Part shown: piece after piece, positions 48,865 through 62,749 of the stretch
Layout of the letters: each line of letters opens with the position of its first letter
How positions within the stretch are numbered: position 1 is the first letter of the stretch
DNA from: Dyella tabacisoli
Lineage (GTDB): Bacteria; Pseudomonadota; Gammaproteobacteria; Xanthomonadales; Rhodanobacteraceae
Length of the DNA stretch: 64,000 nucleotides
Assembly (NCBI RefSeq): GCF_003350925.1
Contig: NZ_KZ857180.1
Span: forward strand, 62,001 to 126,000
Direction: 5' to 3'
Program-made: the position numbers and the translations under genes
The notes under the pieces: model-generated
Seen by the model: only the letters and a program-made list of their open reading frames with translations
Told to the model about the DNA's origin: nothing
Database searches by the model: none

Positions 48865-50493
48865 GTGCCTATAGCCGCGCCCCCCTCCTTTACCAGTGCC
48901 CAACCCGCCACTGAGCCGGTGCGCCATGAGCTGTTTTTTCTCAACTACTTTCGGCTGGTACAGGCGCTGATCTACTCCGCACTGGCCTTCAGCCCGACGC
49001 AGGAGTGGCCCAGGCTCAGCAATATCGGCCTCGCCCATGCGCTGGCCGTGGCTTACCTGGTGTTTGCGGCACTTACCCTGATCTTGACTCGCCGCGTCGC
49101 CTCGCGAAGCAAACTGATCGTGTCGGCCACCCTGGTGGTGGACATCATCACGGCAGTGCTGGCGGTAACGGCCATACACGACGCACGCATCGGCATCTCG
49201 ATGATGCTGGTGGTGAGCCTGAGTGCCGGCGCGCTGATCCTGCCGCTACGGCTGTCGCTGTTTTTTGCCGCACTCGCCACCCTGGGCATGCTCGGTCACT
49301 CGGCCCTTGAGTTGCCGAAGACGGATATGGATCGCGAGCTGTTGGAGTCGGGCCTGTTTGGCCTGGCTTATTTCGCCAGCACCCTGCTCTGCTATGTATT
49401 GAATCGGCAATTGCGCGCCACCGAGGCACTGGCCGAACAACGCAGCATCGACCTGGCCAATCTGTCGCAAGTCAACGAACTGATTATTCGCCGCATGAAG
49501 ACCGGGGTGTTGCTGGTCGACGACGCCAATCGCATCCATCAGATCAACGAATCGGCCTGGATGCTGCTGGGCAACCCCTCCGCCGATCAGCGCGACCTCG
49601 GCCAACTCGCCCCGGAACTCTCGCGCCGGCTGTATCACTGGATCACCTCAGGCAAGTTGAACGAAACCGCCACCCAGCTTGCCGACGGCGTGCCCGAAGT
49701 CGTGCCGCGCTTCGCCCGCCTGGCGCCCAACGATGACTCGCACGTACTGATTTTTCTCGATGACACCTCGCTGCTGTCGCGTCGCGCCGAAGAGCTGACA
49801 CTTAGCTCGCTGGGCCGGCTATCGGCCTCGATTGCGCATGAAATCCGCAACCCGCTGGCGGCGATCCGCTACTCGGCGCAACTGCTGGCCGAGTCGAGCG
49901 ACCTCGGCCTGACCGACCAGCGCATGGTCGAGATCATCAACAACCACTGCATTCGCCTCAACGACATCATCGAAAACATTTTGCAGTTGTCGCGGCGCGA
50001 ACGATCACGCCCCGAAACGCTGGACCTTGGCCGCTGGGCACACAGCTTTGCGGAGGAGTACCGCCAAGGCAACGACCTCGGCGTGGATTCGCTGCGAGTG
50101 ATTGCCGGCGAGCAACCCGTGGCCGCCGTGGCCGACCCGCAGCAACTACAACAAGTGCTATGGAACCTGGTGCAAAACGCACTGCGTTACGGCCGCCTGC
50201 CCGGCGAACCCGCGCGTGTCATGGTGGTGGCGCGGCATGGCGAACACGGCGTGCCAATCATCGAGGTGATCGACCGCGGCCCAGGCATCGCCCCCAAGGT
50301 CGCGGCACAAATCTTCGAACCGTTCTACACCACCCATGAATACGGCACCGGACTAGGCCTATATCTGGCCCGGCAGATGAGCGAGGCAAACCAGGGCTCG
50401 CTGGAATATGTCCGCGTAGCCGGTGGCGGCAGTTGCTTTCGATTGATGTTGACGCCAGCGCATCGCAGCAAGGGGATGGATGACGGGGACTAG
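48865..50493 (+). CDS. pilS: Type IV pilus sensor histidine kinase PilS
   Basis: Inner-membrane sensor that phosphorylates PilR to control pilin (pilA) transcription with sigma-54. The 542-aa product has about six hydrophobic segments in residues 25-185, a PAS-like region (about 205-310, IIRRMKTGVLLVDDANRIHQIN), the H-box IAHEIRNPLAAIRYSAQLL with phospho-acceptor His325, and a HATPase domain (WNLVQNALRYG, VIDRGPGIAP, GTGLGLYLARQM). It starts at GTG 48865. In other genomes pilR follows directly; here the partner lies at 63084. The stop codon TAG is in the degenerate start of repeat element E. Confidence 0.95.
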   Translation: MPIAAPPSFTSAQPATEPVRHELFFLNYFRLVQALIYSALAFSPTQEWPRLSNIGLAHALAVAYLVFAALTLILTRRVASRSKLIVSATLVVDIITAVLAVTAIHDARIGISMMLVVSLSAGALILPLRLSLFFAALATLGMLGHSALELPKTDMDRELLESGLFGLAYFASTLLCYVLNRQLRATEALAEQRSIDLANLSQVNELIIRRMKTGVLLVDDANRIHQINESAWMLLGNPSADQRDLGQLAPELSRRLYHWITSGKLNETATQLADGVPEVVPRFARLAPNDDSHVLIFLDDTSLLSRRAEELTLSSLGRLSASIAHEIRNPLAAIRYSAQLLAESSDLGLTDQRMVEIINNHCIRLNDIIENILQLSRRERSRPETLDLGRWAHSFAEEYRQGNDLGVDSLRVIAGEQPVAAVADPQQLQQVLWNLVQNALRYGRLPGEPARVMVVARHGEHGVPIIEVIDRGPGIAPKVAAQIFEPFYTTHEYGTGLGLYLARQMSEANQGSLEYVRVAGGGSCFRLMLTPAHRSKGMDDGD

Positions 50494-50496
50494 GGA

Positions 50497-50652
50497 GCGG
50501 GGACTAGGGAACGGGGAACGGGGAACGGGGAACGGGGAACGGCCTAAGAAGCAGGAGCAAAAAAGCAAGAGAAAAAACAAAGAAAAATCAAAAAAGAACG
50601 CGGCGCTGCAAGCACCCATCAGTCTGCATGTTCCCCATTCCCCGTTCCCCGC
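50497..50652 (+). repeat. GGGGAAC-array hairpin element, copy E (short array)
   Basis: Degenerate GGGACTAGGGAGC units followed by four perfect GGGGAAC units (to 50541), A-rich spacer (GGCCTAAGAAGCAGGAGC...), right arm (GTTCCCCATTCCCCGTTCCC, about 50630-50652). It fills the gap between the convergent ends of pilS and the LacI-type regulator; the right arm ends about 8 bp from the regulator's stop. Confidence 0.92.
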
Positions 50653-50659
50653 TCTTAAC

Positions 50660-51688
50660 TCACGTCCCCCGCACTATCAGCTCCACCGGCAACACCTCAG
50701 ACTCCACTTCCTCGCCCTTAATCAGCGCCAACACCTTGCGCGCCAACTGGGTACCGCCGGCCTGCCAATCTTGTCGCACCGAACTCAGCGGCGGCAGGAA
50801 ACTCGCCGCCAGCGGCATGTCGTCGTAACCGACCACAGCGACGTCATCCGGCACTTTGCGGCCCAGCGCGTTCAGCGCGCGAATCGCCCCCATCGCCAGC
50901 AAATCGCTACAGGCGAACACTGCGTCGAAAGGGACTTTACGTGCGGCCAACGCATCGATCGCATCCATGCCCGAGGCCAGGGTAAATTCGTCGCGGCGAA
51001 TCAGCAGCGGCTTGATCCCATGTAGTGCCAGCGCATCGACGAAACCATGCAAGCGCTCATAGATCTCGGGATGGCCGGGGTTGCCGATAAAAACCGGATT
51101 GCGTCGCCCCTGCCCCGTGAAATGCTCGGCGACGATCTGGCCGCCGGCGCGGTTATCGCTGCCGACCACTACATGGTGGTCATGATCGCCATGAGCGCCC
51201 CACACCACCATCGGCAAACCCAGCTTGTCGAAACGACGCACCGCATCCTGATGCACACCTTGACCCAACAGAATCATGCCGTCGGCGGCCTGCACCGCCG
51301 CCGCGGTAGCACCCTGCCGCGTAGTCAATAACACGCTATAACCGGCAGCGGTCAGCTCCTGCGAGATGCCACCCAGCAGGGTCAACGGGTACGGGTCGAG
51401 CATGGTGCGGTCGTTGCTCGGCTTCATCTCCACGATGACCGCCACCGTATAGCTATGGCGCAGGCGCAGGTTGCGCGCGTTGAGATTGAGCTTGTAACCG
51501 TGTTCGCGTGCGAGCGCCTGTAGCCGCTCGCGGGTGGCTTGATTGACCAGCGGGCTATCGCTGAGCGCCCGCGACACGGTGATTTTCGAGACCCCAGCGA
51601 GATCCGCCAGATCGGCCATGGTCAGGCTCGCCGATGACGCATCACGCGCACTTCGCTTGGCTGGCTGCGATTTCTGACTGCGACTCAA
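50660..51688 (-). CDS. LacI-family transcriptional regulator of the sugar locus
   Basis: Predicted sugar-responsive repressor. An N-terminal helix-turn-helix (MADLADLAGVSKITVSRALS), hinge region (NARNLRLRHSYTVAVIVEM), and a periplasmic-binding-protein-like sensor domain (DGMILLGQGVHQD, VGSDNRAGGQIVAEHFTGQG, CSDLLAMGAIRALNALGRKVPDDVAVVGYDD) over about 342 aa. The start is uncertain: TTG at 51688 gives a normal short arm before the HTH; the frame opens further to 51814, and ATG 51619 would cut into the HTH. It is divergent from the GH65 fusion gene and its likely operator lies between them. Confidence 0.9.
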   Translation of the reverse strand: MSRSQKSQPAKRSARDASSASLTMADLADLAGVSKITVSRALSDSPLVNQATRERLQALAREHGYKLNLNARNLRLRHSYTVAVIVEMKPSNDRTMLDPYPLTLLGGISQELTAAGYSVLLTTRQGATAAAVQAADGMILLGQGVHQDAVRRFDKLGLPMVVWGAHGDHDHHVVVGSDNRAGGQIVAEHFTGQGRRNPVFIGNPGHPEIYERLHGFVDALALHGIKPLLIRRDEFTLASGMDAIDALAARKVPFDAVFACSDLLAMGAIRALNALGRKVPDDVAVVGYDDMPLAASFLPPLSSVRQDWQAGGTQLARKVLALIKGEEVESEVLPVELIVRGT

Positions 51689-51906
51689 GAGCTGGCCCCG
51701 GACTATTTTCAAGATGCTGCGACACGGCGAACTGATCCGCCGCCATGGCGCGCAGTGTGTCGATTTGAGTGCGATGCGTCCAACCAGAAACGCGCCAGCC
51801 CCCTGCTTACCCATCGAGGCAGCGCTTGCCGCCGCCCTGACTCAGCCGGCAATAGCACCTCGCTTTCGCTCCAAGCCGCTCTGCCAAGCCATGCTATTAC
51901 TGCGTC

Positions 51907-51950
51907 GCAGCAAATGATATCGATATCTTGATACCGATATCATTTGCTGC
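51907..51950. promoter_or_regulatory. LacI-family operator (perfect inverted repeat)
   Basis: Perfect 16-bp arms GCAGCAAATGATATCG and CGATATCATTTGCTGC with a 12-bp centre. Inside are two LacI-type half-operators with the typical central CG: TGATATCGATATC and TGATACCGATATCA. It lies between the divergent regulator (start about 220 bp away) and the GH65 fusion gene (start 41 bp away). Confidence 0.75.
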
Positions 51951-51990: not shown

Positions 51991-54900
51991 ATGTTGGATC
52001 ATCACGAATCAGAGTCAGTCAACGCATCGGCACCCCATGACGGCAAGCCGATCGACCCCTGGCTACTGACCCGCCATGGCATCGACCCGGCCGGCTTTGC
52101 GCAGGACGAGAGCCTGTTCGCGCTGGCCAACGGCGCACTCGGCGTGCGCGGCGGACTGGAAGAGGGCGACAGCCCCACCCAGGCCAGCTTTCTCGCCGCC
52201 GCCTGGGAGCGCACGCCGATCGAGTACCACGAGCGCTTCCCCGGCTTTGCCAGTCATACCGATACACGCATCCCAGTGGCCGACGCCACCCGTATCCAGC
52301 TACGCCTGGGCAATACGCCAGTGCGACTCGGCGAAGGGCACTGGCTGGATTTCGAGCGTGCATTAGATCTACGCAACGGCCGTTATTGCCGCCGCCTGCG
52401 TTGGCGCTCGCCAACCGGCGCGACTCTGGAGATCGAGGCCGAGCGCATCGTTAGCCTGGCCGATCCGGGCCTGCTCGCCATCCGCTATCAAGTGCGCTCC
52501 ATCGATTACCACGGGCCGATCAGCTTCGAATCCTCTATCAGCACGACCCGCGCCGCCGCCGAGCAAGGGCTGGACCCACGCATCGGCGCACGCCTGGACG
52601 GCGGCTTGAACACCGGCAACGCCCGCGCCGATGAAGCTCAAGCCTGGCTGCAGCAACAAACCACCCATAGCGGCATTCGCCTGGCCTGCGCGCAGGCCCA
52701 TGCCTGGCCGGGCTCGGAGCTGAGCTTTCGCCAGGCCCATCTCAGCGCCCATGGCGTCACCCAGACCTATGCCGGCACCCTGGCGCCGGGCCAGACGATT
52801 GCGCTGGAAAAATACGTTGCCTACGCCTGGACCCAACCAGACGGAACCGATAGCGATGGCGCCTTGCTGGCGCGCGCCGAGGCCAGCCTGTTGCGCGCGG
52901 CTCAACATGGTTACGCCACCCTGCTCGACCGCCAGACCGAGATCCTGGCCAAGCTATGGCAGGACACCGATCTGGCTATCGACGGCGATCCGCAGATCGA
53001 GCAAGCGTTGCGCTTCAATCTCTTTCACGTTTTCCAATCGAGCGGCCGCGACGGCCACAGCAGCGCCGCCGCCAAGGGGCTCACCGGCGAGGGCTACGAA
53101 GGCCATTATTTCTGGGACGCCGAAGCTTTTATGCTGCCGGCCCTGGTCAATCTAGCGCCCGAGCTGGCGCACGGCATGTTGCTCTACCGCTACCGCACGC
53201 TGGATCGCTCGCGCCGGCACGCGCGCGAGTTGAACCATCCACGCGGCGCGCTATACGCCTGGCGCACGATCAGCGGCGACGAGTGCTCGGCCTACTTCCC
53301 CGGTGGCTCGGCGCAGTACCACATCAACGCTGCCGTCGCCTGGGCCGTGCGCCTGTATGTCGATGCCAGCGGCGATCACGAATTCATGCTCAAGCACGGC
53401 GCCGAGATGCTGTTCGAGACCGCGCGCATCTGGCTCGATATCGGCCACTTCAATCCGCGTCGCGGCGGCGCTTTCTGCATCCACGAAGTCACCGGACCGG
53501 ACGAATACTCAGCCCTGGTCGACAACAATCACTACACCAACCGGATGGCCCAACGGCATCTGCGCGATGCCGCCGCAACGGCGCTCTGGATGCTCAACAG
53601 CGCCCCCGCCGCCTACGCCGCGCTATGCGCACGCATCGAACTCGGTGAGGGCGAAATCACCAAATGGCGTCGCGCTGCCGAAGCGATGTACTTGCCTGTA
53701 GACACGCGACTGGGCATTTTTCCGCAGGACGACGGCTTTCTCGATAAGCCGCGTCTGCGCCATGCCGATGGTGATGTCGATGTCGATGTCGATGTCGATC
53801 ACCAGGATGCTCACGCCAAGCGCCCGTTGTTGCTGAAGTTGCATCCGCTAAGCATTTATCGTCACCAGGTATGCAAGCAGGCCGATACCTTATTGGCCTT
53901 GATGCTGGCCGGCGAAACGGTCGATCGCGATGCCAAACGACGCAACTTCGATTACTACGAAGGCGTCACCGTGCACGACTCCACTTTGTCGGCGTCGACC
54001 TTCAGCGTCATCGCCGCTGAAATCGGTGAGGCGGCGAAAGCCTATCGCTATTTTCTAGACACCCTGCGTGTCGATCTGGACGATTTGCACGGCAATGCCG
54101 CGCACGGCGTACATATGGCGGCCATGGCCGGTAGCTGGCTGGCGCTGACCTGGGGCTTCGGTGGCCTGCGCGTCATCGATGGCCTGCCGTCACTGGCCCC
54201 GCGCCTGCCTGACGCATGGCGCGGCTATCGCTTCGGCCTGCGTTGGCGCGATGTGCAGTTGCGTGTCGCGGTCGACCGCGATGGCGTGACTTACACCTTG
54301 AGTCGCGGCATCGAACTCAATTTCCGCCATCACGGCCAGGCCAAGCATTTGCGCAGCGGCGAATCGCTGCGGCTAGCGCACAGCATGCCCGCACCCTCGC
54401 GCCACCGCCTGACGCAGCCATTGCAAGCGGTGATCTTCGACCTCGATGGCGTCATTGCCGACACCGCCGTGGCGCACGATGCCGCATGGCGGCAGCTTGC
54501 CGCCGAGATCGGCGTGCCATTCGATGACAGCCTTGGCGAGCGGCTGAAAGGCGTCGACCGCATGGGCTCGCTGGCGCTGCTGCTTGAGCGCAGTCAACAC
54601 GCTTACAGCGACGCGGAAAAAACCGCGCTGGCCGAACGAAAGAATACTTATTACAAAGCCAGGATCGCCGACATGGGTCCGCAGGATCTACTACCGGGCG
54701 CGCGCGCCGCGATCGAGTCAGCACGCCGCGCAGGTCTAAAGATCGGTCTCGCCTCGGCCAGCCGCAACGCGCCCATGTTGCTGCAGCGGCTAGGCATCAC
54801 CGAACTGTTCGATTACGTGGTCGATGCCAGCCGCATTGTCCACTCCAAACCTGATCCGGAAATTTTTCTGGCAGCGGCCAGCGGCCTTGGTATCGCGCCA

Positions 54901-55080
54901 AGCGCATGCCTGGGCGTAGAGGACGCTGCCGCAGGTATTGCCAGCCTGCGTGCCGCGGGGATGACGGCGGTAGGTGTTGGCTTGCACGAAGCACTAGCCG
55001 ATGCAGATGTGCTGTTGCCGAGCGTCGCCGCGTTCGACATCAGCATTTTCAAAACCGATTCAAACGGCGAACTGGGGTAA
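51991..55080 (+). CDS. GH65 glycoside phosphorylase fused to beta-phosphoglucomutase
   Basis: Bifunctional cytoplasmic enzyme, 1029 aa. The N-terminal part (about residues 1-785) is a GH65 disaccharide phosphorylase: N-terminal beta-sandwich, (alpha/alpha)6 barrel with GLTGEGYEGHYFWDAEAFML, catalytic acid Glu505 in TGPDEYSALVDNNHYTN, and HDSTLSASTFSVIAAEIG, the region that binds phosphate in phosphorylases. The C-terminal part (about 811-1020) is a HAD phosphomutase with nucleophile Asp817 and acid/base Asp819 (FDLDGVIAD), SASRN, HSKPDPEIFL and GVEDAAAG. Together they would turn an alpha-glucobiose plus phosphate into glucose and beta-glucose-1-phosphate, then glucose-6-phosphate. Whether the substrate is maltose, trehalose, kojibiose or nigerose is not clear. 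The start ATG follows CGGGAGCGC. Confidence 0.9.
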   Translation: MLDHHESESVNASAPHDGKPIDPWLLTRHGIDPAGFAQDESLFALANGALGVRGGLEEGDSPTQASFLAAAWERTPIEYHERFPGFASHTDTRIPVADATRIQLRLGNTPVRLGEGHWLDFERALDLRNGRYCRRLRWRSPTGATLEIEAERIVSLADPGLLAIRYQVRSIDYHGPISFESSISTTRAAAEQGLDPRIGARLDGGLNTGNARADEAQAWLQQQTTHSGIRLACAQAHAWPGSELSFRQAHLSAHGVTQTYAGTLAPGQTIALEKYVAYAWTQPDGTDSDGALLARAEASLLRAAQHGYATLLDRQTEILAKLWQDTDLAIDGDPQIEQALRFNLFHVFQSSGRDGHSSAAAKGLTGEGYEGHYFWDAEAFMLPALVNLAPELAHGMLLYRYRTLDRSRRHARELNHPRGALYAWRTISGDECSAYFPGGSAQYHINAAVAWAVRLYVDASGDHEFMLKHGAEMLFETARIWLDIGHFNPRRGGAFCIHEVTGPDEYSALVDNNHYTNRMAQRHLRDAAATALWMLNSAPAAYAALCARIELGEGEITKWRRAAEAMYLPVDTRLGIFPQDDGFLDKPRLRHADGDVDVDVDVDHQDAHAKRPLLLKLHPLSIYRHQVCKQADTLLALMLAGETVDRDAKRRNFDYYEGVTVHDSTLSASTFSVIAAEIGEAAKAYRYFLDTLRVDLDDLHGNAAHGVHMAAMAGSWLALTWGFGGLRVIDGLPSLAPRLPDAWRGYRFGLRWRDVQLRVAVDRDGVTYTLSRGIELNFRHHGQAKHLRSGESLRLAHSMPAPSRHRLTQPLQAVIFDLDGVIADTAVAHDAAWRQLAAEIGVPFDDSLGERLKGVDRMGSLALLLERSQHAYSDAEKTALAERKNTYYKARIADMGPQDLLPGARAAIESARRAGLKIGLASASRNAPMLLQRLGITELFDYVVDASRIVHSKPDPEIFLAAASGLGIAPSACLGVEDAAAGIASLRAAGMTAVGVGLHEALADADVLLPSVAAFDISIFKTDSNGELG
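53766..53799 (+). repeat. Coding (GATGTC)4 microsatellite
   Basis: Four perfect hexanucleotide units GATGTC at 53773-53796 encode alternating Asp-Val (GDVDVDVDVDH) in a surface-loop-like part of the GH65 domain. Changes of whole units keep the frame. Confidence 0.9.
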
Positions 55081-55173
55081 TCAGACCGAAGTCATCGAAC
55101 CGGGCAATCGAACCGGGGGAGTCGCCTCGCTTCATGCGGCGCGATAACAAAAACTGGGTGGGGAGTAAGGTTT

Positions 55174-57723
55174 ATGCATAACAAGTCACTGACCCGATTG
55201 ACGCTATCGGCGGCCATTGCCGCCAGCTTGATGTCTGGCGTCCTGGTCTCGCAAAACGCATCTGCGCAAGACAACACGCAAGCACAAGGCAACACCTCGA
55301 CGGCCAACAAGGGGGCGCCGCAAGCGGCTGACGCCAAGTCGACCAAAACGCTGCAAGAAGTTGTGGTGACCGGCACCCCGACCGTAGGCGGCATACGAAA
55401 AATCGACGCCAGCTTCTCGATTACCTCAGCTACTGCCGAACAGATCAAACAAGCTAACCCGAAGAGCACGGCCGATCTGCTGAAAATCGCGCCCGGCCTG
55501 TGGCCTGAATCCACCGGTGGCCAGACCGGTGCGAACGTTGAAATCGCCGGCTTCCCCGGTGGCGGCGACGCGCCGTTCTTCACCATGCAGATGATGGGTT
55601 CGCCGCTCTATGGCATGCCGACCTTATCGTTCTTCGAGCAATCGACGATTTTCCGCCTCGACGACACGATCGAGCGCGCTGAAATTCTGCAGGGCGGCCC
55701 TTCGGTCGTCTTCGGCGACGGCCAGATCGGCGCCACCGCGAACTTCATCCTCAAACAAGGCTCCGCCAAACCCACCGGCAGCGTCGGCATCACTTATGGT
55801 TCGGAGGGCTTGTGGCGCGCCGATGGCTTCTACGGCTTCAAGCTTGCTGAGGGCTGGTATGGCAGCGTCGGCGGTTTCTGGCGCACCTCCGATGGCGTGC
55901 GCTCGCCGCAATTCAAAGCCGACAAGGGCGGCCAGTTCACCGCCACCGTATCGCACGACATCGGCACCAACGGCTCGCTGATGCTGTACGCCCGCCTGCT
56001 CGACGACAAGAATCAATTCATCACGCCGATCCCCTTGATCCAGCACGGCAGCGATAAATTTTCCGCCTATCCAGGCTTCGATCCGCTGACCGACACGTAT
56101 TACTCCAAGGCCATCCAGCACGTGCATCTGGCCGGCTATCCCGGCGGCGGCACCGATGCCAATCTGGCCAACGGTCGCGGCGCGAAAATGACCTTTTTCG
56201 GCGGCAACTTCGATTACGACCTGGGCGATGGCTGGTCCATCTCCGACAAGTTTCTGCTCAACGGCGGCGACGTCGATACCAATGCGCTGTTCTCGGGATC
56301 CAATCCGGCCTCGTTGAACGACATGCTTTACAACACCCCGGCCGGTTTTGGCGGGCTGGTCCTTCCCGCTGGCGCGGCAACCGCCAACTACGTCAACGGC
56401 GGCGCGGTGGATCCCAATCAAAGCGTCATCCATCAGGGTTGGTGGTATATCCACAAACACCTGAAAAACATCAACAACGATTTCCGCCTGAGCAAAGAGC
56501 TGTTCGAAGGCAATACGCTGACCGCAGGCCTGTATCTGGCGCACTACACCGACGACGACAAATGGGCGCTGGGCAACCAGATGCTGATGAGCAATACGCC
56601 CAATGCCCGGCCGATTACGGTGACCTACAACAAGGGCGGGCAAACCTACTACGTCACCGACAATCAGGGCCTGCTCGACAATGGCGGCTACAACATCACC
56701 GAGCACGGCGTAGCCACCAACAAGGCGTTTTACCTGTCCGATTCGTGGCGCATCGACCGCTGGTTGTTCGACGCTTCCGCGCGCCTGGAAAACCAGCACG
56801 CCTCCAATCGCGTCTGCAATCTGAGCAATGTCGATCTCGATCACAACCCGCTCACGCTCTACAACAATTCGGTGCCCGTGTGTAACGGCACCTTCTCCAC
56901 CACCGACTACGACAAGACACATACCTCGTGGACAGTCGGCGCCAACTACGAGCTGGCCGACAACATGAGCGTGTACGCCCGCGTGAACAAGGGCGTGCAC
57001 TTCGGCGATTTCGACAACGCCTTGCGCGGCAATACCACCGGCAATACAGCGCCACTGCAAAAGGTGCAGAACTTCGAGGCGGGTTTCAAATATCAGTCGG
57101 ACCTGATCTACGCCGATATCAGCGTTTATCACAAACAGTTCAATGGTCTGACCTATCAACCGACCGACGGCCAGGGCGTGCCGGTAGGTAAGCAACTGCT
57201 GTACGGATCGGACTCCAAGGGCGTCAACCTCAGTGGTGCCGTGATGCCTATCGATCACCTGCGGCTGCAACTGGTCGCCAACTATCTCGATGGCCACTAC
57301 TCGCACTACACCGGCTGCATCCCGTATGTGAATTCGGTAGCCGGCAACGGCTGCGCACCGATCAACGGCGTGCAATTGCAGCGGCAGCCGAAGTTTCGCT
57401 ACATGTTTACCCCGAGCTACAAGATCCCGTTCTCCTGGGGCGATGTCACCGCTTTCGTAACCTATACGCATGTCGGCTCGCATACGCAGGATCAATCGGG
57501 CCTGCAGCAACTGGGCACCTATCACACCTGGGATTTCGGCGTGGTCGCCAATGTCGAACAGAACTGGGAGCTGCGCTTGCAAGGCACCAATATCACCAAC
57601 GAGCTGGGCCTGACCGAAAGCAACTCGCGCATTTTCGGCTCCGCCTCCGGCAGTGACGGTGTCATCCTGGCTCGGCCGCTGGAAGGTCGCGAGGTCAATT
57701 TCCAGGTCAAGTACAAGTTCTAA
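55174..57723 (+). CDS. TonB-dependent receptor for the sugar locus
   Basis: Outer-membrane importer, 849 aa, presumably for the oligosaccharide metabolised by its neighbours. It has a signal peptide (to NASAQ), a Gln/Ala/Lys-rich linker, TonB-box-like QEVVVTGTP, a plug (about 65-190, QANPKSTADLLKIAPGLWPE, AEILQGGPSVVFGDGQIGAT) and a barrel ending EVNFQVKYKF. It is not closely related to the two receptors that flank the B12 operon. Start ATG 55174 has GGGGAG upstream. It is 93 bp downstream of the GH65 fusion gene and followed by a terminator, so the genes after it need another promoter or read-through. Confidence 0.92.
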   Translation: MHNKSLTRLTLSAAIAASLMSGVLVSQNASAQDNTQAQGNTSTANKGAPQAADAKSTKTLQEVVVTGTPTVGGIRKIDASFSITSATAEQIKQANPKSTADLLKIAPGLWPESTGGQTGANVEIAGFPGGGDAPFFTMQMMGSPLYGMPTLSFFEQSTIFRLDDTIERAEILQGGPSVVFGDGQIGATANFILKQGSAKPTGSVGITYGSEGLWRADGFYGFKLAEGWYGSVGGFWRTSDGVRSPQFKADKGGQFTATVSHDIGTNGSLMLYARLLDDKNQFITPIPLIQHGSDKFSAYPGFDPLTDTYYSKAIQHVHLAGYPGGGTDANLANGRGAKMTFFGGNFDYDLGDGWSISDKFLLNGGDVDTNALFSGSNPASLNDMLYNTPAGFGGLVLPAGAATANYVNGGAVDPNQSVIHQGWWYIHKHLKNINNDFRLSKELFEGNTLTAGLYLAHYTDDDKWALGNQMLMSNTPNARPITVTYNKGGQTYYVTDNQGLLDNGGYNITEHGVATNKAFYLSDSWRIDRWLFDASARLENQHASNRVCNLSNVDLDHNPLTLYNNSVPVCNGTFSTTDYDKTHTSWTVGANYELADNMSVYARVNKGVHFGDFDNALRGNTTGNTAPLQKVQNFEAGFKYQSDLIYADISVYHKQFNGLTYQPTDGQGVPVGKQLLYGSDSKGVNLSGAVMPIDHLRLQLVANYLDGHYSHYTGCIPYVNSVAGNGCAPINGVQLQRQPKFRYMFTPSYKIPFSWGDVTAFVTYTHVGSHTQDQSGLQQLGTYHTWDFGVVANVEQNWELRLQGTNITNELGLTESNSRIFGSASGSDGVILARPLEGREVNFQVKYKF

Positions 57724-57788
57724 GTACAAGTCATGAGTACACGTTTATAAGTACGGGTTTATAAGTTACCGGGGCCCCTCCCCGACGA

Positions 57789-57833
57789 GTGGTCCAGGCC
57801 GGCTACCCTATAACGGCCTGGACCACCCTTTTT
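57789..57833 (+). terminator. Rho-independent terminator after TonB receptor
   Basis: Perfect 13-bp stem GTGGTCCAGGCCG / CGGCCTGGACCAC, 12-nt loop, then CCTTTTT. It ends 20 bp before the MFS start. Just upstream (57724-57765) three short direct repeats of the type TAAGTAC/TTATAAGT follow the receptor stop. Confidence 0.9.
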
Positions 57834-57852
57834 GTTATGCATCGAGGTGGCT

Positions 57853-59097
57853 GTGAATCGATTCCGCATGATCGCCGCGCTGGCACTGATCTATATGGTC
57901 TTCGCGATACTGCTTAACAGTGTCGGCACGGTCATCCTGCAATCCATCCACACCTTCAACATCGACAAACCGCAGGCCAGCTTGCTCGAATTGTTCAAGG
58001 ATCTGCCCATCGCGATCACCTCGTTTCTGGTCGCATCCTTTCTGCCTTTGCTGGGTTATCGACGCGCCATGATGCTGGCGCTGGCAATCGTCGGTTGCGC
58101 CTGCATGTTGATGCCGCTGTATCCGGGTTTTCATACCGCCGAGCTGCTGTTCACTTGTATCGGTATTTCGTTCGCGCTGGCCAAGGTCGGCGTGTACTCG
58201 TCGATCGGCCTGCTGACCCATGACAAGACCGAGCACAGCCGGCTCACCAACACCATCGAAGGGCTGTTCATGCTCGGGGTAATGATCAGCGGCTGGCTGT
58301 TCAGCGCCTTCATCGATCATGACGCACCGACCAACCCCACCTGGCTGAATGTTTACTGGCTGCTTGCAGCACTGTGCGGCCTGGTCATTGTTTTGCTCGC
58401 CACCTCGCGCCTCGACGAATCGGCAGCACATAGCGGCGGCAAAAACTCGATTCGCGGCTCGCTCAACGAAATGCTGCAATTGTTTCTACGGCCGCTGGTT
58501 TACGTGTTTCTTATTTCGGCCTTTCTATACGTACTGATCGAACAAAGCTTCGGCACCTGGCTGCCCACCTTCAATAACGAGATTCTCAAACTGCCCAATG
58601 CGATGAGCATCCAGCTCGCCAGCATTCTCGCCGGCGCCACCGCACTGGGCCGCATCGGCGCAGGCCAAGTGCTGCGGCGGGTGCCCTGGCATATCCTGCT
58701 AAACCTCTGCGTCGTCGGCATGGGTTTGCTGGTGGTGCTGACCTTGCCGCTGGCACGCGATGTCGTCGCGCGTGCCGACGTGAACTGGTTCAACGCACCG
58801 GCCGCCGCTTATCTGATTCCGCTGATCGGCTTGTTGATGGCGCCGATTTATCCGGTCATCAACTCGGTGGCGCTCAGTTCGCTACCCAAACCCGCACATG
58901 CGGCGATGACCGGCCTGATCGTTATTTTCTCCGCGCTCGGCGGCACGCTAGGGTCGCGTATCACCGCGATCGTGTTTGCCAATTTCGGCGGCATCCACGC
59001 TTTTTATTTTTCGCTGGTGCCGATGTCGCTGGTGTTGATCGCACTGTTTTTCTTCAAGCGCGAAACCGATCGTGCCGGCGGCCTTACGACAAAATAG
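57853..59097 (+). CDS. MFS transporter, predicted sugar permease
   Basis: Inner-membrane major facilitator of 414 aa with about 12 hydrophobic segments. It shows GYRRAMMLALAIVGCACMLM after TM2, a central cytoplasmic loop (TSRLDESAAHSGGKNS), and IYPVINSVALSSLPKPAHA in the C-terminal half. The family resembles FucP/NanT-like sugar permeases, but the substrate cannot be read from sequence. Start chosen: GTG 57853 with GAGGTGG just upstream; the frame is open a further seven codons into the terminator. Context suggests transport of glucose or a disaccharide released by the GH65 enzymes. Confidence 0.85.
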   Translation: MNRFRMIAALALIYMVFAILLNSVGTVILQSIHTFNIDKPQASLLELFKDLPIAITSFLVASFLPLLGYRRAMMLALAIVGCACMLMPLYPGFHTAELLFTCIGISFALAKVGVYSSIGLLTHDKTEHSRLTNTIEGLFMLGVMISGWLFSAFIDHDAPTNPTWLNVYWLLAALCGLVIVLLATSRLDESAAHSGGKNSIRGSLNEMLQLFLRPLVYVFLISAFLYVLIEQSFGTWLPTFNNEILKLPNAMSIQLASILAGATALGRIGAGQVLRRVPWHILLNLCVVGMGLLVVLTLPLARDVVARADVNWFNAPAAAYLIPLIGLLMAPIYPVINSVALSSLPKPAHAAMTGLIVIFSALGGTLGSRITAIVFANFGGIHAFYFSLVPMSLVLIALFFFKRETDRAGGLTTK

Positions 59098-59165
59098 CTC
59101 CCGCCCGCGAAAGAAGCCCGGCGAGCAATGCGCCGTTGAGTAGTACGTATAGACATGGAGTTATC

Positions 59166-61412
59166 GTGAAGTTCCGTCACTTGAAATGTATTGGCCTGTG
59201 CCTGATCGCCGCCTTGGCCGCACCCGCATTCGGCCAGACCGACCCAAGCTTCCTGCTCACGGCAACCTCGAAGCATTTCGATAGCTACTTTCCCAGCTAT
59301 CTCGCCAACGGCTATTTTTCGACGATGACATCGCCGCGCGGCACCGAGGGCAATCTCGCCTATATGGTCGCCTTTATGGACTACGCCAAGGACGATATCG
59401 CCCGCCCCGCCGCGATTCCCGGTTGGAGTGAAATCGACTACAACCCCGGTGGCGGCTGGATCAATTCAACCCGCCTGGGCAAAGAGATCTTTACCGACTA
59501 CGCGCAGACACTGAACATGCGCGACGGCACCTTAAGCACCCGTTATCGTTTCGTCTATGCGAACAAATCGACCGACGTAAAAGTCACCACCTTCGTCAGT
59601 CAGGCAGCGAATCATCTTGCCGCAACCCAGCTTTCGATCACCCCGCAATTTGACGGCAGCGTGCAACTGACATTTCCGCTGCGGCTGTGGTCGGAGCATC
59701 AGCCGCGCTTCCCCATCGGCAAGATGAGCGGCGATGAGATGATCGCCGCGGTCATCGCCAGCGGGCAGAATCTGGATAACAAACCCGTACCCACGCCCGA
59801 CCGCGCCGCCGTGTGGTATCACGGCGTCACTCGCATTGTGTCCAGCGATGGCGATGCCAAGGCGTTGACACTGTCCCTCGATGGCCGTGCCGAACAGGGC
59901 CTGACCATGGCCGAGGCCGCCGCCATCAACCTGCCGGCCGACCTGGACATCGAAGACGTCAAGCTGGAGCGTGGCCCGCACCGCCTGTCGCTCAACGTCG
60001 TCGCCAAAGTAAAACAAGGCAAAACCTACACCTTCACCAAATACATCGCCGCCTCCCGGCAGAACTGGGGCGGCGATGCGAAAGAGACGCTAGCCCTGGC
60101 CAAAGCCGCGCGCGAGACCGGCTTTGCCGCCCTGCTTGCCGAGCATCAGGCCGCATGGCATGAACTATGGAAGGCCGACATCGTCGTCGAAGGCGACGCC
60201 AAGGTGCAGCAGGCGTTGCACTCGGACTTGTATTACCTGCTGTCCAACACCACCACCGGCACCGCCTGGCCGATGGGCGCCTGCGCACTCACCCCCGGTT
60301 ACGCCGGCCATGCTTTTTGGGACAGCGACTCGTGGGTGTTTCCCGCCCTGCTCTTGCTGCATCCAGAGCGCGCCAAACCGATCGTGATGTTTCGCCATCG
60401 CACTATGCAGCCCGCCCGCGAACGCGCTCGGCAGTACGCCACCAAAGGCACCATGTATCCGTGGGAGTCCGACCCCGAAACCGGTGTCGATCACACGCCG
60501 CATTTTGCCTATGGCGTGTTTCGCGAGATCCATGTCAATGCGGATATCGCCATCGCCCAATGGCAGTACTACCTCGCGACCGGCGACACCGCCTGGCTCA
60601 AACAATACGGCTGGCCGGTGATCGACGAAGTGGCGCAATTCTGGGCCAGTCGCGTTACCTACAACAAAGAAAAAGACCGCTACGAGATTCATCACGTCAC
60701 CTCGCCGGACGAAGCCTACGACGACGTGCCCAATGATTCGTTTACCAATGCCGTCGCGCGCAAGGCACTGACCATTGCGATTCAGGCATCGAAACTGGTC
60801 GGCGCCAAAGCCGACCCGCAGTGGGCCGAGATCGCCTCGAAAATATATATCCCGTTCCAGGACCAGGAGCAGCGCCATCTCGATTTCGACGCCTCGGTGC
60901 CGCACGACAAAATCACCTGGATGGGTTCGTCGCTGGCCTGGTTGATGTATCCCAATCTCGACCTGCCGATGTCGGCGCAAGTGCGCAAGAACGACTTCGA
61001 CTTTCAGCTCAACGAACTGAAAGTGCATGGCGACGACCCCAACGAAATGATGATGGTGATGCTTGCCGTCGGCGCCGCGGAATTGGGCGATGCGAAAACC
61101 GCCGGCGATTGGATACAACGCAACTTGGTCGGCTTTCTCAAACCGCCGTTCAATGTGCGCACCGAAACGGTGGCCAACAACGCCGGATACATTCTGGCCA
61201 CCTCCGCCGGCTTCGTGCAGAGTTTCGTCTACGGCCTGAGCGGCCTGCGCATCGACGAGCAAGGCCTGACCGAGGCCTATGCGCCTGCGCTGCCACCCGC
61301 ATGGCGCGCGCTCACCCTCAAGCACATCAGCTTCCGTGGCAAGCATTACGACATCCATATCGAGCGCAACGCCAGCGGCAAAGCCGTGCTGACCCGCAAG
61401 GCCCTGGACTGA
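59166..61412 (+). CDS. Secreted GH65-family glycoside hydrolase
   Basis: Predicted periplasmic or outer-membrane-facing alpha-glucosidase-type enzyme, 748 aa. Signal peptide (VKFRHLKCIGLCLIAALAAP to FGQ). The (alpha/alpha)6 catalytic domain holds GYAGHAFWDSDSWVFPALLLL, and the predicted general acid is Glu516 in TSPDEAYDDVPNDSFTN. The order resembles the bacterial GH65 hydrolases characterised as kojibiose hydrolase and the acid trehalases rather than the phosphorylases: it is exported, where phosphorolysis would lose the product. Start chosen at GTG 59166 with GGAG 5 nt upstream, giving a normal signal peptide. It lies 68 bp after the MFS gene. Confidence 0.87.
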   Translation: MKFRHLKCIGLCLIAALAAPAFGQTDPSFLLTATSKHFDSYFPSYLANGYFSTMTSPRGTEGNLAYMVAFMDYAKDDIARPAAIPGWSEIDYNPGGGWINSTRLGKEIFTDYAQTLNMRDGTLSTRYRFVYANKSTDVKVTTFVSQAANHLAATQLSITPQFDGSVQLTFPLRLWSEHQPRFPIGKMSGDEMIAAVIASGQNLDNKPVPTPDRAAVWYHGVTRIVSSDGDAKALTLSLDGRAEQGLTMAEAAAINLPADLDIEDVKLERGPHRLSLNVVAKVKQGKTYTFTKYIAASRQNWGGDAKETLALAKAARETGFAALLAEHQAAWHELWKADIVVEGDAKVQQALHSDLYYLLSNTTTGTAWPMGACALTPGYAGHAFWDSDSWVFPALLLLHPERAKPIVMFRHRTMQPARERARQYATKGTMYPWESDPETGVDHTPHFAYGVFREIHVNADIAIAQWQYYLATGDTAWLKQYGWPVIDEVAQFWASRVTYNKEKDRYEIHHVTSPDEAYDDVPNDSFTNAVARKALTIAIQASKLVGAKADPQWAEIASKIYIPFQDQEQRHLDFDASVPHDKITWMGSSLAWLMYPNLDLPMSAQVRKNDFDFQLNELKVHGDDPNEMMMVMLAVGAAELGDAKTAGDWIQRNLVGFLKPPFNVRTETVANNAGYILATSAGFVQSFVYGLSGLRIDEQGLTEAYAPALPPAWRALTLKHISFRGKHYDIHIERNASGKAVLTRKALD

Positions 61413-61475
61413 TGCGCGCCCTCGCACCGCACGGTTGAGATGTTTACGGCTTTATCCATCTGTGGAGAAATCGCC

Positions 61476-62552
61476 ATGCGCATACCCCGCCCTCGATCCC
61501 AACAGCTAATCGCCTTGTTTTGCGCAGGCTTGCTCAGTGTTGCGGCATGGGCCGATACGCCGCCTGCGCGCGTCAGCGGCAACGGCGGCGTGACCGCAAC
61601 CGATTTCAGCGCGCCCTACTCCGCCTTCGCCTCACCCGAGTCGCTCGTACGCTTTCAACAAATGATCGTCGAGAACCGCAGCGCGCCCGGCCTGGGTAGC
61701 CCGATTGAAGTCAGTCGCGCCTACTACGAGCGGATCAACGCCGATCGCGTCGAACGCATGAAAAAACTGTACCCCGTAAAGATCGCCGCACAAACCATCG
61801 GTGGTGTCCCCACCGATGTAGTGGAGCCGGCGGCGGGAATCGGCGGGGACAGCCATGAGCGAGTGCTTATCAATCTGCACGGCGGCGGCTTTCTATGGGG
61901 CGCCCATAGCGGCGGCCTGGTGGAGTCGATCCCCATCGCCAGCCTGGGCAAGATCAAGGTCGTCAGCGTCGACTACCGGCAAGGCCCCGAGTACGTTTTC
62001 CCCACCGCCAGCGACGATGTGGAAGCGGTCTACCGCGCATTGTTGAAACACTACAAAGCTAAAAACATCGGCATCTACGGCTGCTCCGCCGGCGGCTTTC
62101 TCACCGCCGAATCGGTCGCCCGATTCATCTCCAAACACCTGCCGGTACCGGGCGCCATCGGTACCTTCTGCGCCTCCTTGGTCGCCCTCGACGGCGACTC
62201 CGTCTATACCGCGCCACCACTCAATGGCGACGCCGTACCCAAGCATCCTATACAACTCACCGACCTGCCCTATTTCAAAGGCGCCAGCCCCACCGACCCA
62301 CAAGTGCTTCCCGGCGTTTCGCCGCAACTACTAGCCAAGTTTCCGCCGACCTTATTGATAAGCGGCACCCGTGACTTCTCCATGAGCTCAGTGATTCGCA
62401 GCCATGCCCTGCTGACCCAGGCCGGCGTCGATGCCGACCTGCACGTATGGGACGGCATGTGGCATTCGTTCTTCTCCGACCCCGAGCTACCAGAGTCGAA
62501 AGACGCCTACAACGTCATCGTGAAGTTCTTTGCACGGCACCTAGGTCACTGA
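61476..62552 (+). CDS. Secreted alpha/beta-hydrolase (HSL-type esterase)
   Basis: Exported serine esterase, 358 aa, substrate unknown. Signal peptide (MRIPRPRSQQLIALF to AAWADT). The HSL-family signature HGGGFLWGAHSGG forms the oxyanion hole; the nucleophile is in GCSAGG (a GxSxG motif with Cys in position 2); the acid is in ISGTRDFSMSS and the His in WDGMWHSFF. Start ATG 61476 follows GGAGAAATCGCC. Last gene of the sugar locus; it might remove acyl groups from the sugar substrate. Confidence 0.85.
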   Translation: MRIPRPRSQQLIALFCAGLLSVAAWADTPPARVSGNGGVTATDFSAPYSAFASPESLVRFQQMIVENRSAPGLGSPIEVSRAYYERINADRVERMKKLYPVKIAAQTIGGVPTDVVEPAAGIGGDSHERVLINLHGGGFLWGAHSGGLVESIPIASLGKIKVVSVDYRQGPEYVFPTASDDVEAVYRALLKHYKAKNIGIYGCSAGGFLTAESVARFISKHLPVPGAIGTFCASLVALDGDSVYTAPPLNGDAVPKHPIQLTDLPYFKGASPTDPQVLPGVSPQLLAKFPPTLLISGTRDFSMSSVIRSHALLTQAGVDADLHVWDGMWHSFFSDPELPESKDAYNVIVKFFARHLGH

Positions 62553-62570
62553 GGATGTGTTTGCCCGGTG

Positions 62571-62749
62571 CGTAGGTTGGGGTGAGCGAATGCGAACCCC
62601 AACGTTGCGCGATGCTGGGTATTACGGCGAGTCCCAAAAGCACGCATGTTGGGTATCACGGCGGATCCCAAAAGCATGCCACCTCGGGTATCACGGCGAG
62701 CCTCAACGTTACGCAACGTTGGGCATCACTTTGTTCAGCCCAACCTACG
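62571..62749. repeat. Diverged IR-bounded MITE-like repeat
   Basis: Ends CGTAGGTTGGG / CCCAACCTACG are the same as in the 32886 repeats, and part of the interior is (CCCCAACGTTGCGC, ACGCAACGTTGGGCATCACT). In between are three extra copies of a GGGTATTACGGCGAGTCCC-like unit. It begins 19 bp after the esterase stop, marking the right end of the sugar locus. Confidence 0.88.

Follow-up and report, generated by a model that had tools for sequence, protein, structure and literature searches.

Introduction

In Xanthomonas, TonB-dependent carbohydrate utilization (CUT) loci, the sucrose locus among them, combine a receptor, an inner-membrane permease, a cytoplasmic enzyme and a LacI-type repressor. 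The same elements are found in a locus of the soil bacterium Dyella tabacisoli, a member of the Rhodanobacteraceae, located in a 64,000 nucleotide window (the whole stretch of DNA analysed, positions 62,001 to 126,000 of contig NZ_KZ857180.1; coordinates below are those of the window). In contrast to the Xanthomonas CUT loci, the Dyella locus has a glycoside hydrolase family 65 (GH65) phosphorylase fused to a beta-phosphoglucomutase and a second, exported GH65 enzyme. No description of such a locus was found among the matches listed in searches of the open-licence literature.

The inverting alpha,alpha-trehalose phosphorylases of GH65 (EC 2.4.1.64), from Thermoanaerobacter brockii and Thermobispora bispora (TbGP), are the closest described relatives of the fusion. 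Compared with the passages on these enzymes in PMC8537180, it shares the GH65 domains, the phosphate-site Lys, Ser and His, the SAY loop and R392, I394 and P416. It differs in carrying a beta-phosphoglucomutase (other fusions of the same order were not searched for in depth), in a Thr for the second phosphate-site Ser, and in its setting in a Gram-negative locus with a TonB receptor and a major facilitator superfamily (MFS) permease. The tree of a 2023 review, in the part consulted here, places GH65 only in Gram-positives (PMC10969515).

For the exported enzyme the nearest described proteins are the kojibiose hydrolases FjGH65A and MmGH, with which it has in common a signal peptide, the acid and base Glu residues, a Trp-Glu pair and the absence of the phosphate-site Lys and His. 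It differs from them by an identity of 24% to the fold match, by the absence of the -1 subsite Lys-Gln and of Thr407, and by a score below the NCBIfam cut-off. Protein glucosylgalactosylhydroxylysine glucosidase (PGGHG), also of GH65, has a similar YGV stretch after the PWES loop, but is an animal collagen enzyme and retains Lys-Gln-Ala-Asp. The branched-dextran locus of Flavobacterium johnsoniae likewise has a GH65 with a signal peptide; it is directed at dextran, and the passages describing it do not mention a GH65 phosphorylase fusion (PMC8626586, PMC10316084).

From domain identities, catalytic and phosphate-site residues, the operator and the co-occurrence of modules, all read from sequence, we favour with moderate confidence the following reading: the locus is a LacI-controlled, TonB-dependent system by which Rhodanobacteraceae use trehalose and a trehalose-type glucoside, and its two arms share one outer-membrane receptor.

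Results and discussion

The cytoplasmic GH65-phosphoglucomutase fusion

A fusion with its phosphoglucomutase DxD at Asp817/Asp819 had been described in the first-pass annotation, and numbering from the ATG at 51991 reproduced both residues. The same numbering gave the acid Glu505, the SAY loop at 433-435 and KQAD from 629. No signal peptide was apparent by eye. The N-terminal, central and C-terminal GH65 domains were all matched (Pfam), and the beta-phosphoglucomutase equivalog TIGR01990 scored 232 bits against a cut-off of 189. The closest PDB sequences were maltose and kojibiose phosphorylases and, for the C-terminal domain, beta-phosphoglucomutases. Alignment to kojibiose and maltose phosphorylases showed that all 29 phosphorylase sequences have the Lys, first Ser and His of the phosphate site, the acid Glu and the -1 Lys-Gln. 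The beta-phosphoglucomutase domain adjoined the GH65 domain in all 28 phosphorylase loci.

Substrate specificity was read from six positions (64/392/394/402/416/585). De Beul et al. (PMC8537180), where they treat these positions, give KV(M/F)NES for maltose phosphorylase, EEAPxx for kojibiose phosphorylase, DQGQDE for a trehalose 6-phosphate enzyme and TRIGPP for the verified trehalose phosphorylase TbGP; the loop of the T. brockii trehalose phosphorylase is given there as SAY. R392 and I394 were conserved in 29 of 29 phosphorylase homologues. Position 402 was A in 23 of the 29, S in 5 and G in 1, the window protein having A402 within SAY. Hand alignment, made for the window sequence only, gave T64 and P416. 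The fingerprint is therefore of the trehalose phosphorylase type, not of the kojibiose or maltose type, and predicts an alpha,alpha-trehalose phosphorylase. Judged by these residues, the GH65 domain is quite likely an inverting trehalose phosphorylase with an attached mutase and with trehalose as its substrate.

The exported GH65

Numbering from the GTG at 59166, with GGAG upstream, gave the acid Glu516 reported earlier for the exported enzyme and a candidate base, Glu667. Residues were compared in 48 exported sequences, 47 from the fetched loci and the window's own, all matches above 500 bits; weaker GH65 matches from the fetched loci were dropped from this set and served as controls. The FWD motif, the Trp391/Glu392 pair (PWES), the acid Glu and the base Glu were present in 48 of 48. 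The phosphate-site Lys was replaced by Cys in all 48 and the His was kept in none. The first phosphate Ser was Asn in 43 of 48; the second position held Ser in 13 and Thr in 5 of the 48, among second paralogues. The phosphate-site Lys and His are found in 29 of 29 phosphorylases and in none of the 48 exported sequences. The earlier division into one hydrolase and one phosphorylase is supported, and so are the two compartments, the fusion and co-regulation. The catalytic and phosphate-site pattern is close to that given for the hydrolase in the corresponding passages of PMC8626586. The exported enzyme is, on its residues, very likely a hydrolase.

The -1 Lys-Gln (Lys538-Gln539) and the +1 Thr407 were found in none of the 48 exported sequences. 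In place of Lys-Gln the exported clade reads HDKITWMGSS, and the second paralogue DSWGGSS or shorter forms. Lys-Gln was present in 12 of 12 distant GH65 control proteins (from 11 loci outside the family and 1 inside). Where Nakamura et al. discuss this pair, it is given as conserved in FjGH65A, two phosphorylases and eukaryotic hydrolases (PMC8626586). The NCBIfam kojibiose hydrolase model NF053734 scored 352.8 bits, below its cut-off of 800. The closest PDB sequence was FjGH65A (E 1.2e-76), followed by human PGGHG. As it has hydrolase residues, lacks the -1 Lys-Gln and scores below the NF053734 cut-off, the enzyme is classed here as a GH65 hydrolase, without assignment to the kojibiose or another specificity. 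The fold nearest to its AlphaFold model was that of the kojibiose hydrolase 7fe3 (TM 0.70/0.80); the model is good only in the core, with a mean pLDDT of 72.5 and several loops below 50. The chances that the enzyme acts on a trehalose-based sugar are in our judgement about even. Candidate substrates of this kind are acylated trehalose, 2-glucosyl-trehalose and trehalosamine, with no preference among them.

A profile search of 321 genomes of the class (the window's included) and 151 of the order found no close homologue of the exported enzyme outside the family. Among the best 80 of 167 matches, close relatives belonged mostly to Rhodanobacter, Dyella, Frateuria, Fulvimonas, Rudaea, Oleiagrimonas and Mizugakiibacter. 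Two of these 80 speak against a strictly family-bound gene: L142, labelled Steroidobacteraceae (70%), and L097, labelled Eremiobacteraeota (78%). Both are metagenome-assembled and may be misbinned.

The esterase encoded after the exported GH65 scored 483.7 bits with NF058650 (cut-off 410). Its real start is probably the ATG at 61476. De-acylation by this enzyme is a guess.

Co-occurrence of the two arms

The exported enzyme was found in 55 and the phosphorylase in 53 of 117 sampled genomes of the family, with thresholds of at least about 698 bits for the hydrolase and about 854 bits for the phosphorylase. Fragmented copies in G076 and G002 were accepted; the GH65 matches in G034 and G081 were weaker and left out of the counts. 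Both genes were present in 42 genomes, the hydrolase only in 13, the phosphorylase only in 11 and neither in 51 (Fisher odds ratio 15, p 1e-10, the p value being indicative only as the genomes are related). In 41 of the 42 pairs the genes lie on one contig, 3.4-9.1 kb apart; the remaining pair, in G060, is on two contigs. Two copies of the exported GH65 were found in 18 of the 117 genomes. The pairing of hydrolase and phosphorylase is not due to chance. It had been thought unusual for one locus to hold both; within the family the pair is in fact the commoner state of either gene (42 of 55 and 42 of 53).

Forty loci were fetched and 39 counted, with presence of the components determined by tblastn. 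L073, a distant GH65 relative that keeps Lys-Gln, gave no score for any component and was excluded from the three-way counts (Table 1). L057, L061 and L072 end at contig ends, which makes the absence of outer genes weak there; the genome-wide counts of the GH37 gene given below guard against this.

Table 1. Components in fetched loci, by locus type.
Locus type	n	LacI	Receptor	MFS	GH37	Esterase
Both GH65 genes	20	19	20	19	9	14
Hydrolase only	11	3 weak matches (27-30%), not the same gene	11	0	11	7
Phosphorylase only	8	8 (one at 27%)	7	7	1	3

These counts indicate that LacI, MFS and fusion form one module, and the exported GH65 and, more loosely, GH37 another. The congener G002 keeps the phosphorylase arm (phosphorylase, receptor and MFS), with a receptor that is only 40% identical. 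After the MFS gene this genome lacks the exported GH65 and about 280 residues of the esterase, of which just the end is left.

Other genes were seen in some of the loci. A TPR protein with a C-terminal 2OG-Fe(II) oxygenase domain (PF13759) occurred in 11 of the 39 (L046, L047, L048, L049, L050, L055, L057, L059, L068, L069 and L070), all with the exported GH65. A GH127-family enzyme (PF07944) lies between LacI and the fusion in L051 and L052, with LacI-type operators on both sides, and in 4 of 39 loci a GH31 gene is close to the exported GH65. The GH127, GH31 and MFS_L048_61 neighbours were too rare for interpretation.

Regulator, operator and transport

The LacI, TonB receptor, MFS and secreted esterase genes listed in the first-pass annotation were confirmed by family searches (Pfam, NCBIfam). 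The helix-turn-helix of the LacI protein starts at residue 65 of the open reading frame, so that translation probably starts about 60 codons further in. A close copy of this gene was present in 19 of 20 loci with both GH65 genes and in 7 of 8 phosphorylase-only loci.

The inverted repeat between LacI and the fusion holds two TGATAYCGATATCA-type sites 14 bases apart. A 13-base form of the operator, allowing up to two mismatches, gave 10 matches in the window against 1.1 expected, both exact ones in the gap between LacI and the fusion. Of the 28 phosphorylase loci, 27 have the 14-base site (up to two mismatches) ahead of the fusion; L077, the one without it, lacks a close LacI. The site was found in none of the 11 hydrolase-only loci. 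A rearrangement has parted the arms in L051 and L052, and there the operator precedes the fusion and occurs again between LacI and MFS-GH65-GH65. An operator at each parted arm gives good support for one regulator of both, and we are highly confident that the two arms form one shared regulon.

Of the 28 phosphorylase loci 26 have MFS, against none of the 11 hydrolase-only loci, so the permease goes with the phosphorylase and not with the hydrolase. The receptor tree (37 rows) mixes the three locus types; well-supported branches force at least four hydrolase-only and at least six phosphorylase-only changes, and the sister receptor pairs L078/L044 and L080/L060 differ in the presence of the exported enzyme. 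By its sequences, one TonB receptor lineage is common to both arms.

Proposed function of the two arms

According to the proposed mechanism, the outer-membrane TonB receptor would serve both arms. The MFS permease would import trehalose into the cytoplasm, where the GH65 domain of the fusion would phosphorolyse it to glucose and beta-glucose 1-phosphate. The fused beta-phosphoglucomutase would then convert beta-glucose 1-phosphate to glucose 6-phosphate, saving one ATP per disaccharide. The exported GH65 would be an inverting periplasmic hydrolase of a new specificity group; its substrate would be a related trehalose-type sugar that probably carries a modification or extension. A divergent GH37 enzyme, present in every fetched locus without the phosphorylase, would work beside it in many relatives. 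Substrates are predicted here from residues only, and the directions of transport, the stereochemistry and the ATP saving are likewise part of the proposal.

A number of observations weigh against this reading. All 29 phosphorylases have Thr in place of the second phosphate-binding Ser, a conservative change. At 402 the fingerprint has A or S, and G only once, where the TbGP motif that was tested has G, and position 585 of the window protein is ambiguous by one column, P or H; the reference kojibiose phosphorylase sequence was without one residue near 525, which shifted 585 by one. The Trp-Glu pair of the kojibiose enzymes is retained in the exported enzyme and points to an alpha-1,2 bond, not to trehalose itself. 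The two arms also occur apart, so that evidence for a common substrate comes only from the receptor and regulator that they share. Further points come from the GH37 gene, which belongs to relatives and lies outside the window: no such GH37 was found in the window's own genome, and GH37 occurs also with the phosphorylase alone (6 of 11 genomes). The divergent form was present in 13 of 13 hydrolase-only genomes, 30 of 42 with both genes and 1 of 51 with neither; its excess in hydrolase-only genomes over those with both is slight (p 0.049, relatedness ignored). The Arg of its PGGRF signature is replaced by F, Q, M or A in 20 of 21 locus copies. We take this Arg to act at the -1 sugar subsite. Its loss makes it unsafe to name trehalose as the substrate of the locus GH37.

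The locus GH37 belongs to PF01204 (318.6 bits in L043 against a cut-off of 21), and the nearest PDB relative was a fungal neutral trehalase. The catalytic Asp of ESG-(F/Y)-D was present in 21 of 21 copies, and the Glu of EKY in all 20 copies reaching that point. In its passages on GH37, the 2023 review gives motif 1 as PGGRFxExY(G/Y)WD(S/T)Y, motif 5 as EK(Y/F)D and trehalase as the only activity (PMC10969515). Motif 5 read EKYN in 19 of the 20 locus copies reaching it and EKYD only in L072. Trehalase-family proteins encoded elsewhere in genomes of the family kept PGGRF in 5 of 5 examined, and three of these (G003, G045 and G079) share a genome with the divergent GH37. The sole PF01204 match in the genome of D. 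tabacisoli, G000:C3:29044-29646, was weak (67.9 bits, C-terminal part of the profile). With this match alone, trehalose may pass mainly through the fusion in this organism (the search did not extend to GH15 trehalases).

It was most surprising that two unrelated periplasmic enzymes, GH65 and GH37, have each lost a signature residue of the sugar site. An explanation could be that both have independently rebuilt the subsite for the non-reducing sugar, to accept an unrecognised trehalose-like disaccharide (e.g. with a substituted or non-glucose ring) imported with trehalose by one TonB receptor. This explanation is tentative and, on present evidence, rather unlikely. If true, GH65 would gain a new specificity and GH37 its first member other than a trehalase, and the sugar would be a new carbon source in soil.

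The separate occurrence of the arms would also fit two unrelated substrates under one regulator. The fusion would then serve trehalose, and the exported GH65 would cleave, as an alpha-1,2-glucosidase, the kojibiose-type ends of branched glucans, glycolipids or glycoproteins, with only repressor and receptor shared. PWES and the acid and base residues match kojibiose hydrolase, and FjGH65A and PGGHG are the best and next-best matches. However, the curated kojibiose hydrolase model was missed by a wide gap (353 of 800 bits), Thr407 and Lys538-Gln539 are absent from all 48 sequences, one receptor family and one operator serve both arms, and an enzyme of the trehalase family travels with the exported GH65. 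We therefore regard two unrelated substrates as fairly unlikely. A plain periplasmic trehalase, comparable to the fungal GH65 acid trehalases and offering a hydrolytic alternative for the same trehalose, would agree with the shared receptor and regulon and with the replacement of one arm by the other between genomes. It is made improbable by the absence of the -1 Lys-Gln in 48 of 48 sequences, as the pair is reported as conserved in fungal trehalases where PMC8626586 treats it, and by the accompanying GH37 having lost the signature Arg that trehalase-family proteins elsewhere keep.

The first-pass annotation had proposed a relay. Outside, an acylated alpha-linked oligoglucoside would lose its acyl groups and be trimmed; inside, phosphorolysis would act on the glucobiose that is left (kojibiose, nigerose or maltose). 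Gene content, compartments and the common operator agree with this scheme, and in genomes with both arms a passage from outside to inside could take place. The phosphorylase, however, carries a trehalose fingerprint and the esterase is missing from part of the loci. Moreover, either enzyme occurs without the other (phosphorylase only in 11 and hydrolase only in 13 of 117 genomes), and the congener without the hydrolase and most of the esterase retains the phosphorylase arm; a strict relay is thus not required, and we consider it very improbable as an account of the locus. For the phosphorylase, the fingerprint narrows the alpha-glucobioses suggested as substrates to trehalose; the exported enzyme is not simply a glucobiose hydrolase, given its NF053734 score and the loss of the -1 Lys-Gln.

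The earlier observation is accurate and its parts are ordinary; the rebuilt binding site of the exported arm is unexplained. In this locus a GH65 phosphorylase and a GH65 hydrolase are paired by nature within one regulon, and because some relatives have one arm only, what phosphorolysis costs and gains the cell can be compared directly. The altered sugar-binding residues of the exported GH65 clade, and of the GH37 clade that accompanies it, predict a new substrate.

Locus layout and neighbouring genes

The five co-directional genes from fusion to esterase and the divergent LacI-family gene (Table 2) lie between pilS (48865-50493) and a pilR-like response regulator gene (from 63075, to 64000), the pilR label being a reading of the sequence without a family search. 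These two GH65 genes are the only PF03632 matches in the whole 5.07-Mb genome.

Table 2. Features of the locus, in window coordinates.
Feature	Position	Strand	Basis
LacI-family repressor	50660..51814	-	Pfam LacI, Peripla_BP_3
Operator: 16-bp perfect inverted repeat with tandem palindromes TGATATCGATATC, TGATACCGATATCA at 51915, 51929	51907..51950	.	
GH65 phosphorylase with C-terminal beta-phosphoglucomutase, predicted cytoplasmic	51991..55080	+	Pfam GH65 N/m/C, HAD; TIGR01990
TonB-dependent outer-membrane receptor	55174..57723	+	Pfam Plug, TonB barrel
MFS permease	57832..59097	+	Pfam MFS_1
Exported GH65, predicted hydrolase	59166..61412	+	Pfam GH65 N/m; residues; signal peptide by eye
Secreted esterase, hormone-sensitive-lipase group	61440..62552	+	NF058650, Abhydrolase_3, GCSAG nucleophile motif

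A pilS or pilR homologue was found on the flanks of 21 of the 28 fetched phosphorylase loci, and both in 13 of 28; none of the 11 hydrolase-only loci had either homologue on a flank. This points to a recurrent insertion place of the phosphorylase-bearing form. By eye, repeated GGTATCACGGCGAGCC-type stretches were seen in the gap between esterase and pilR (62560-62740), and tandem CGGGGAAC units near 50495-50545.

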